Part shown: one piece after another, positions 28,596 through 30,858 of the stretch
How the letters are laid out: each line of letters begins with the position of its first letter
Position numbering within the stretch: position 1 is the stretch's first letter
Source of the DNA: Bacteroidales bacterium
GTDB lineage: Bacteria > Bacteroidota > Bacteroidia > Bacteroidales > UBA932
Length of the DNA: 64,000 nucleotides
NCBI GenBank assembly: GCA_016281015.1
Contig: JAEEHS010000033.1
Location: 31,814 to 95,813 of the forward strand
Direction of reading: 5' to 3'
The notes under the pieces: generated by a model
What the model saw: only the letters and a program-made list of their open reading frames with translations
The model's database searches: none
Told to the model about the DNA's origin: nothing
Made by a program: the position numbers and the translations under genes

Positions 28596-29516
28596 ATGCG
28601 TTACATTCTTTGCCTGTCATACAACGGCCGGGATTTCTGCGGCTGGCAGACCCAGCCTTCCGCGCCTTCCGTCCAAGGGGCCCTTGAGACCGCCCTGTCG
28701 CGGCTTCTCGGCTGTCCTGTGGCGGTCACCGGCGCAGGAAGAACCGATACATCCGTCCATGCATCCGGATATATCGCCCACTTCGATCTGAGCGGCCCGC
28801 TGCCCTTCCCTGCAGGGGATTTCTGCTACAAAGTTAATGCCATCCTGCCCCGTTCGGTGGTGGTCCATTCCATCCTGCCGGCGAGGGATGATTTCCACGC
28901 CCGCTTCTCCGCGCGCAAGCGTTCCTATACCTATTTTCTCCACCGGGTCAAAGACCCCTTCCTGGATGCGTTTTCCTGGCAGTGCGGCTATCCGGGGCTG
29001 GATTTCGGGGCCATGAACGAGGCCTGCCATTTTCTTCTCGGGACCCACTCTTTCACTTGCTTCGAAAAGACCGGCGGAAACGCCAAGACCTCCCGCTGTA
29101 CGGTCCATGAGGCCTTCTGGAAGCCCTATACCCCATCACACATCGCTATCCTGGGCTCGCCCCGGCTCGTGCTGGGGGACGCCTGGGGGACGGCCGGCGG
29201 TGCGGGGACAGAATGGACACATGCTGACTATCAGACAGTTGCGGCATCTCCCTTCCCCCAAAACGGGGAAGGGACATCGGCTAAGTCATTGATACACAGC
29301 GCCGAGACTTTCGAGAGCAAATACTGGTACTTCCGCATCAGCGCCGACCGCTTCCTCCGCAACATGGTCCGGGCCGTCGTCGGCTCGCTCATCGAGGTCG
29401 GTCGCGGCAAACAGCGGCCTGAGTGGATCGGGGAACTGGTCATGGACGGGACGCGCTCCGACGCCGGAGAATCCGTCCCCGGCCACGCCCTCTTCCTCAA
29501 CCGGGTGGAGTACTGA
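28596..29516 (+). CDS. truA: tRNA pseudouridine(38-40) synthase TruA with an in-frame repeat-derived insertion
   Basis: LSYNGRDFCGWQTQPSAPSVQGALE, GAGRTDTSVHASGYIAHF, ISADRFLRNMVRAVVGSLIEVGRGK; repeat copy at 29224-29300 inside the ORF. Confidence 0.93.
   Translation: MRYILCLSYNGRDFCGWQTQPSAPSVQGALETALSRLLGCPVAVTGAGRTDTSVHASGYIAHFDLSGPLPFPAGDFCYKVNAILPRSVVVHSILPARDDFHARFSARKRSYTYFLHRVKDPFLDAFSWQCGYPGLDFGAMNEACHFLLGTHSFTCFEKTGGNAKTSRCTVHEAFWKPYTPSHIAILGSPRLVLGDAWGTAGGAGTEWTHADYQTVAASPFPQNGEGTSAKSLIHSAETFESKYWYFRISADRFLRNMVRAVVGSLIEVGRGKQRPEWIGELVMDGTRSDAGESVPGHALFLNRVEY
29224..29300 (+). repeat. RAYT-B-associated palindromic repeat, copy 1 (inside truA)
   Basis: tgactatcagacagttgcggcatctcccttcccccaaaacggggaagggacatcggctaagtcattgata; stem cccttccc/gggaaggg. 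Confidence 0.88.
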
Positions 29517-29527
29517 CAACCTCCCTA

Positions 29528-29603
29528 CTGATTATCAGACAGTTACGCAATTTCCCTTCCCTGATTTGGTGGAAGGGACATCAGCTAAGTCGTTGATATT
29601 CAA
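29528..29603 (+). repeat. RAYT-B-associated palindromic repeat, copy 2
   Basis: tgattatcagacagttacgcaatttcccttccctgatttggtggaagggacatcagctaagtcgttgatattca. Confidence 0.9.
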
Positions 29604-29656
29604 CGCTCATTTCTGCCGAGCCACAACCGCCCCTGCCGAGCACAACGCCGCCCCGG

Positions 29657-30580
29657 CTACATCCGCCGGAGTTCTAGATGGAGGAACTTGGCAATCTGCT
29701 CCGAGCGGGCATAACTGGCTTCCCTCAGAACGGGAAATAACTGCTGCCGATGCGCTGTTTCCATGGCGAGAAAGGCTTTCGGATTGGATGGATACTGCTT
29801 TTCCATGACCGAGAACATGGGACCATAATCCCTGTCACTGACCCCACAAAAGGATTCCTTGATGTCGTATTCCGCCCCCGTATTGGAATTGACGGCCAGA
29901 AGCATGGATTCATAGCTACCATACAAACGGATAGACGCTTGATAGTCAATGACATTATAAGCACAGATAATACGGTCCGTCAGCTGAAACTGTTCTTTCT
30001 CACTGAGCCCGTCAAATAGGCGGCCCAGAAGCGGATAAGTAAGCGGTCGACCTGTCCTGGCCAGACTGTCCACATATTCGATGGCCCATCTCAAATGGGC
30101 AGAAGGGCGACCCGATGAAAGTGGAGAGGAGAAAGGATGGTCGCTGACGGCATAGGCGAGGAAGTTCCACTGGTAATCCTCCGCCCGCTTGGTCAGTTTC
30201 CTTTCCGGCCCATTGTTGGCAAGATAGGCAAAGGCTGTACGAAGCTGCTTCTCTCTTTGTTTCAGTGCACTGCCATACGTCTCAAACACCGGTCCCTTCC
30301 GTCCACAGGATGCGTTCCAGGCCTTGGCGAACCAAGCGTGGGTTTCCCTTTCGTAGCAGATCCGGTCTTGCTCATGGGCCGCACGGACCAGTTCATGGAT
30401 ATGGTCGACCATCAGGCAAAGACCCATCACGTCAATCTGGTACTTCCTGGCCACGACCGAGACAATGCTGAAATAGACCAATCGGTCATGGACACTGTAG
30501 AACAGCAGGCCGCCGTCACAGCTTCTCCTGTAAATGTGCTCCCATGCTCCCGGGATGAATTTTCGAATCTGACCCCTCAT
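29657..30580 (-). CDS. IS200-like / REP-associated Y1 transposase family protein (RAYT-B)
   Basis: GAWEHIYRRSCDGGLLFYSVHDRLVYFSIVSVVARKYQIDVMGLCLMVDHIHELVRA (HUH-like HIH). ATG at 30580 preferred; flanked by repeats at 29528 and 30676. Confidence 0.78.
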   Translation of the reverse strand: MRGQIRKFIPGAWEHIYRRSCDGGLLFYSVHDRLVYFSIVSVVARKYQIDVMGLCLMVDHIHELVRAAHEQDRICYERETHAWFAKAWNASCGRKGPVFETYGSALKQREKQLRTAFAYLANNGPERKLTKRAEDYQWNFLAYAVSDHPFSSPLSSGRPSAHLRWAIEYVDSLARTGRPLTYPLLGRLFDGLSEKEQFQLTDRIICAYNVIDYQASIRLYGSYESMLLAVNSNTGAEYDIKESFCGVSDRDYGPMFSVMEKQYPSNPKAFLAMETAHRQQLFPVLREASYARSEQIAKFLHLELRRM

Positions 30581-30675
30581 ACGCTTTGATGATTTGCATG
30601 GACGACTTGTCCATTGCAAAGTAAAGGAATCGTTTCGGAAAAAGCAAGGATTTTTCTACATTTTTTATGTATGTG

Positions 30676-30752
30676 TTGACTATTAAATAGTTACGCAATG
30701 TCCCTTCCCTGATTTGGGGGAAGGGACATCAGCTAAGTCATTGATAATCAGA
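30676..30752 (+). repeat. RAYT-B-associated palindromic repeat, copy 3
   Basis: tgactattaaatagttacgcaatgtcccttccctgatttgggggaagggacatcagctaagtcattgataatcag. Confidence 0.9.
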
Positions 30753-30815
30753 CTGGATGTCTGCTACCCGGCCGGGGCGAAAGGGGCCGGGGCAGGACTG
30801 GCGCCGCCGAGCGCC

Positions 30816-30858
30816 CACAGCCAGAGGACAGGCCTAGACCCTACAGCCAGAGGACAGG
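30816..30858 (+). repeat. Duplicated 16-bp segment (27-bp period) at the 3' end of the Ig-like lipoprotein gene
   Basis: acagccagaggacagg at 30816 and 30843; the gene stop is at 30841-30843. Confidence 0.85.

Follow-up and report, generated by a model that had tools for sequence, protein, structure and literature searches.

In the window analysed here, the complete stretch of 64,000 nucleotides, the tRNA pseudouridine synthase gene truA holds a palindrome within its reading frame, and further copies of this palindrome lie on both flanks of a neighbouring transposase gene. Very probably, this RAYT-flanking palindrome entered a permissive hairpin tip of truA, a site which is recurrently colonised by palindromic elements. 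The genome of the window, that of a rumen bacterium, is labelled G000, and its relevant features are as follows.

28596 to 29516, forward strand: truA, tRNA pseudouridine(38-40) synthase, 306 aa, intact, single copy (Pfam, NCBIfam, AlphaFold/Foldseek)
29172 to 29222, forward strand: further extra loop DNA, about residues 193-209, recognised by loop comparison with congeners
29225 to 29298, forward strand: REP-like palindrome in truA, encoding DYQTVAASPFPQNGEGTSAKSLIH, within residues 210-234
29529 to 29602, forward strand: second palindrome copy, 12 bp downstream of the truA stop codon and 3' of the transposase gene
29657 to 30619, reverse strand: divergent HUH/Y1 (RAYT-like) transposase of 307-320 aa with invariant DHxH and YxxNN motifs
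30677 to 30750, forward strand: third palindrome copy, 5' of the transposase gene, with a near-perfect 12-bp hairpin

The palindrome is imperfect and 74 bp long. The copy at 29529-29602 shares 78% identity with the one in truA and 89% with the one at 30677-30750, and a BLAST search of the own genome with 29525-29606 as query retrieved the truA copy at E = 1.2e-12. This bears out an earlier, sequence-only reading of the DNA, in which 29224-29300 had been recognised as the same repeat as those at 29528 and 30676; its statement that the repeat lies in frame inside truA and keeps the frame open was equally correct, as was the translation quoted for residues 210-234. The BLAST search yielded ten matches corresponding to nine places, since one palindromic site was matched on both strands. 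Within the window, a 30-base core pattern was found, on searching both strands, at the three palindrome places alone (chance expectation 0.00), and the copies, treated as single-stranded DNA, form better folds than shuffled sequences do, with z values of -2.9 to -5.0. All copies in the own genome other than that of truA are intergenic or touch the 3' ends of ORFs. The truA copy contains stops in five of its six frames, the sole open frame being the one in use. With regard to the properties expected of REPs, the element forms hairpins, is short and palindromic and lies mostly outside genes, while it fails to reach a high copy number, with about nine places in 2.35 Mb of a genome that is 84% complete. 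The GTAG or CGTC motif is absent from all three window copies. Because this classical tag is missing, the element is termed REP-like; judged from its sequence, it is a RAYT-flanking, REP-like palindrome rather than a classical tagged REP. The earlier proposal that a REP-type element has become coding in an apparently functional TruA is supported in this modified form. Soon after the third palindrome, at 30806-30857, a 26-bp tandem duplication is found, whose two copies are 85% alike and which ends in ACAGCCAGAGGACAG; in G081, the closest, syntenic relative, the flanking repeat is followed by a comparable stretch, agccagagaacagg (L241, near position 2630).

According to the ORF list of the window, truA is uninterrupted over its 306 aa. 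The protein matches Pfam PseudoU_synth_1 (6e-28) and scores 146.7 bits against TIGR00071 of NCBIfam, above the cut-off of 142.85. GAGRTD occupies residues 46-51, including the catalytic Asp within GRTD, the C-terminal domain is intact, and motifs are kept on both sides of the insert. A Foldseek search with the modelled G000 protein gave 1dj0 and 2nqp, both E. coli TruA, as best solved structures. Hence, the three hallmarks of the TruA equivalog (TIGR00071 score, GRTD aspartate and TruA fold) are all present. The dN/dS of truA is 0.16 between G000 and G081 and 0.06-0.12 for five other pairs; the gene is intact and under purifying selection. An inactive truA had been named as an observation that would speak against the sequence-only reading, but the open ORF, the intact GRTD and C-terminal domain, this dN/dS and the confident TruA fold contradict inactivity.

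Alignment of TruA with relatives and an AlphaFold prediction of the loop, both proposed earlier as checks, were carried out. Measured from FW as far as the F of FRI, the loop comprises 70 aa in G000; congeners whose loop is unfilled have about 19-22 aa, and in other Bacteroidota 8-9 aa is the usual length. The earlier reading needs a correction in that the repeat is not the whole extension: the FW-YWY loop is far longer than the repeat, the palindrome supplies 25 of the approximately 48 extra residues, and some 20 others precede it. The additional loop DNA at 29172-29222 is possibly the remnant of an older insertion; when it was compared with the genomes, the self-match alone appeared among the matches listed. 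In the AlphaFold model, the core of TruA mostly has pLDDT values of 75-97, while residues 189-239 stay below 50; this stretch lies between strands 167-177 and 243-250 and forms the tip of a beta-hairpin. The insert is therefore predicted to reside in a disordered loop at a beta-hairpin tip.

The transposase gene begins approximately 140 bp past the truA stop codon and carries palindrome copies on both its flanks. Its product was assigned by fold and alignment: a Pfam search of the protein returned no match, and the NCBIfam model NF047646 (REP-associated tyrosine transposase) matched with 1.6e-5 and 24.8 bits, below its cut-off of 80. The DHxH and YxxNN motifs are invariant in an alignment of its relatives, which occur in 243 of 400 genomes of the genus, with five matches in G000. 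In a Foldseek search with the modelled N-terminal domain, ISDra2 TnpA ranked top, the IS608 transposase and the RAYT structure 4er8 being alike as well; the superposition with 4er8 has an rmsd of 3.4 over 143 columns (E about 0.005). Hence, a Y1 HUH fold with its motifs and flanking repeats, as in RAYTs and REPtrons, are both present, while the curated score is not reached. In G081, truA, transposase and REP-like flanks follow in the same order (L241), with another palindrome in the truA loop. The 29657-30619 transposase is likely the mobiliser of the palindrome.

The genus is a Cryptobacteroides-like, large rumen and gut group of Bacteroidales, with Candidatus Cryptobacteroides faecipullorum among the related records. 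A TruA was recovered from 380 of its 400 genomes, and a clade of 62 truA genes around G000, from genomes which all appear to be metagenome-assembled, was compared further. Loop length in this clade ranges from 19 to 97 aa, and an identified dispersed palindrome occupies the loop in 40 of the 62 members: a GC-rich element in 22, a CGTC-type REP in 17 and the present family in one (G000), leaving 22 with none or an unidentified one. The counts of 17 and 22 come from a third, later classification, since a loose first CGTC motif class had contained two doubtful members (L016 and L031) and a strict one had overlooked the GTCATTCTGAGC variant. As the short motif of the GC-rich class is not confined to it, being present in 21 of 496 further truA segments, this class rests on pairwise alignments and genome matches as well. 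In G003, G005, G019, G028, G044, G050, G053 and G056, the loop DNA is part of repeat families with copies scattered over these genomes, with identities of up to 95-100% over the repeat unit. CGTC-type REPs display the C/T-GTC-ATT head, a stem of about 8-9 bp, a loop of 4-5 bp and dispersed copies known for such elements (for example AACGTCATTCCCGGCTTGACCGGGAATC in L015, with a like unit in L019), and are translated as CHSERSEES, VIPSEVEKS or VIPGLTGN. The GC-rich stem element measures 110-190 bp with long perfect arms and is found in either orientation and in several different frames. L014, L023 and L190 have further, unique palindromes in their loops, while several relatives with short loops are without a strong palindrome. 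Relatives with equally long, unrelated loops had been regarded as evidence against the sequence-only reading; such relatives do exist, yet their loops are themselves dispersed palindromes, which strengthens that reading.

Between well-supported sister species, the loop can differ in holding another element, none at all, or the element with its spacer inverted. Parsimony on a tree built without the loop requires at least 24 state changes within the 62-member clade, which may be an overestimate given the 236 columns and many weak forks of this gene tree. With shuffled labels, a mean of 30 and a minimum of 24 changes were obtained; the observed value lies at the low edge, so that turnover appears fast but partly inherited. 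Because many forks are weak, a conservative count was taken from starred clades of mixed content (L200/L202/L076/L071/L196; L074 with L169/L015/L173; L075/L023/L155; L159/L195; L021/L012/L176), giving at least five switches. On these comparisons, the truA hairpin loop is a recurrent in-frame landing site in the genus. Another long palindrome is located in the same loop in a second, more distant clade (L102 and L208), with a perfect 31-bp arm in L102 and parts that match in inverted orientation between both species. In the bin of G050, contigs C26 and C102 (L018 and L162) hold two different truA genes with different inserts, probably representing two strains or species. A known structured RNA or intron was rejected as an explanation, since Rfam recognised no RNA family either in the loops or near the copies of the window; splicing is also disfavoured, as insertions are seen in either orientation and in several frames.

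As controls, dnaG, recQ, serC, era, moxR and recJ of the window were searched in 18 genomes of the clade. Their 103 orthologues showed net length changes of -19 to +10 aa, or -2 to +4 aa for all genes but dnaG; against this small six-gene set, the length variation of TruA is exceptional. Nevertheless, truA is not the sole REP target, since REPs also lie inside two other genes: among ten CGTC-type repeats in 400 kb of G056, two fall into recognisable genes, one in frame at residue 241 of an outer-membrane efflux protein, after the first OEP domain (L220:1364-2713), the other in frame as C-terminal tail of a MurG-like glycosyltransferase (L222:5627-6805).

How inserts change with time can be read from relatives. 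Compared with the empty truA of L021, the filled gene of L176 is longer by 189 bp, and its right arm carries, in inverted form, host sequence that lies to the left of the insert. L071 and L196/L198 have nearly identical flanks and the same arms, with the spacer between the arms inverted, while in L211 the arms are kept and most of the interior is gone. Within each copy, the two arms of 17-32 bp complement each other perfectly or almost so, yet they differ between species, and the same holds for intergenic copies. The GC-rich element of about 110-190 bp is dispersed outside truA as well (match centre in L041, L046, L047, L052, L062, L064 and L065), its terminal stems of 17-32 bp differing in every copy; in L046, an intergenic copy is nested in a pre-existing stem-loop. 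Replication template switching is recognised by homogenised arms and inverted spacers (PMC8604942), and these patterns in relatives suggest that it probably reshapes the inserts. The published case of template switching in coding DNA resembles L071 and the perfect arms in both respects, but concerns native inverted repeats in yeast rather than mobile palindromes in a bacterial gene.

Taken together, the following course of events is proposed. A copy of the palindrome would have landed at the permissive beta-hairpin tip of truA and survived through entry in its single open frame and orientation; that the G000 gene acquired it by insertion is suggested by the relatives. The adjacent transposase most likely moved the palindrome as single-stranded hairpin DNA in HUH/Y1 fashion. 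Regarding the long GC-rich element of relatives, which does not consistently adjoin RAYT genes, no mobiliser is proposed for this reason. As the loop would project from the enzyme as a disordered tether, selection would tolerate many lengths and sequences, and the inserts may well be neutral. Owing to this tolerance, unrelated palindromes would have come to occupy the site, been lost from it and been replaced over and over in this genus, with template switching then probably homogenising arms, inverting the spacer, extending the stem into host sequence or deleting the interior. Permissiveness is the best explanation for the inserts. Stronger, and rather unlikely, is the idea that the truA hairpin is an active, self-renewing palindrome nursery, in which a defined DNA target is preferred by several families and template switching keeps rebuilding stems from host sequence and giving rise to new protein loops; if true, almost every species would receive a new disordered TruA segment.

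Several other explanations have to be weighed. Should the G000 truA be decaying, the palindrome would sit in a pseudogene or an assembly artefact and its coding status would be meaningless. G000 is a fragmented metagenome assembly of 84 contigs and 84% completeness, and repeats can cause misassembly, but the open 306-aa frame, a single copy per genome, motifs on both sides and the dN/dS of 0.16 contradict decay, and the order of truA, REP-like flank and transposase is repeated in the independent genome G081. A 74-bp repeat is also short relative to usual read lengths, which counts against misassembly. This reading is largely refuted and hardly probable any more. About as improbable is an old extension shared by the lineage, which has drifted and resembles repeats only secondarily: the same insert does occur in the sisters L196/L198/L199/L200 and L015/L174/L175, hence the pattern is partly inherited, but the identity of up to 95-100% between loop DNA and dispersed repeats of the same genomes and the different families in well-supported sisters are at odds with it.

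A more serious candidate, possible though on balance doubtful, is a true insertion hot spot, where the DNA or hairpin remnants attract palindromes, so that targeting adds to tolerance. At least three unrelated families have entered the same stretch of about 20 codons, the intergenic L046 copy lies inside a pre-existing stem-loop, and REPs are known insertion-sequence targets (PMC1525189). Moreover, CGTC REPs are without a dedicated transposase (PMC3733652), for which reason a shared target preference would be needed. However, a common target motif was not found, insert borders vary between species, several short-loop relatives have no strong palindrome, and tolerance combined with random insertion suffices without targeting. 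Improbable, too, is a domestication of the inserts, by which the variable loop would be functional (RNA chaperoning, partner binding or expression control by an mRNA hairpin) and kept by selection. Repeated refilling of one site is in line with this, as is the published remark that REPs target pseudouridine synthase genes of unrelated bacteria (PMC3733652); yet the loops vary in sequence, length, frame and orientation, several close relatives lack any, and AlphaFold predicts disorder. Permissiveness with recurrent colonisation therefore remains the preferred reading.

Intragenic REPs of the GTAG/CGTC superfamilies have been surveyed by Di Nocera et al. 2013 (PMC3733652), who described the CGTC family and reported REPs in truB of several species and in truA of S. 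maltophilia (Stenotrophomonas) as well as different REPs at about the same recB site in two Xanthomonas species. In their view, inserts may be neutral in flexible loops, while the pseudouridine synthase cases were called unclear. A single intragenic case, truA included, is thus not unprecedented. These cases are likewise short dispersed palindromes that lie wholly within ORFs for conserved proteins, where they probably fall into loops or linkers, and the 17 CGTC-type inserts in truA relatives belong to the same superfamily. In contrast to the scattered single cases of that survey, at least three families occupy one loop in most species of the clade here, with replacement between sister species, and the G000 element carries neither tag. 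Rickettsia palindromic elements (RPE-1, RPE-4, RPE-6) also form in-frame insertions in many protein genes, truB among them, and some RPE-bearing proteins are expressed (PMC3733652); by description, their sequences are different, their host is intracellular with a reduced genome, and they hit many genes, whereas here one site is hit many times. As in REPtrons, a Y1/HUH transposase gene is accompanied by repeats on either flank, with one more copy close by, and the model resembles RAYT 4er8 and IS200/IS605 TnpA; unlike in REPtrons, the transposase is about twice the usual TnpA length and fails to reach the NCBIfam cut-off, and the repeat carries no tag, has few copies and, at 74 bp, is longer. 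The literature search retrieved no report on truA loops in Bacteroidota, nor one of recurrence in one loop across a genus with families replacing each other. What appears new from the comparison of genomes is the genus-wide, same-site turnover of several families in the truA loop.

One truA site hence offers dozens of natural experiments in close relatives, in which it is empty, filled, inverted or replaced. With these, it becomes directly testable whether insertion is targeted, tolerated or useful, and also how a mobile palindrome turns into new protein sequence. The recurrence of REPs in pseudouridine synthase genes of unrelated bacteria was left without explanation in the earlier survey (PMC3733652).
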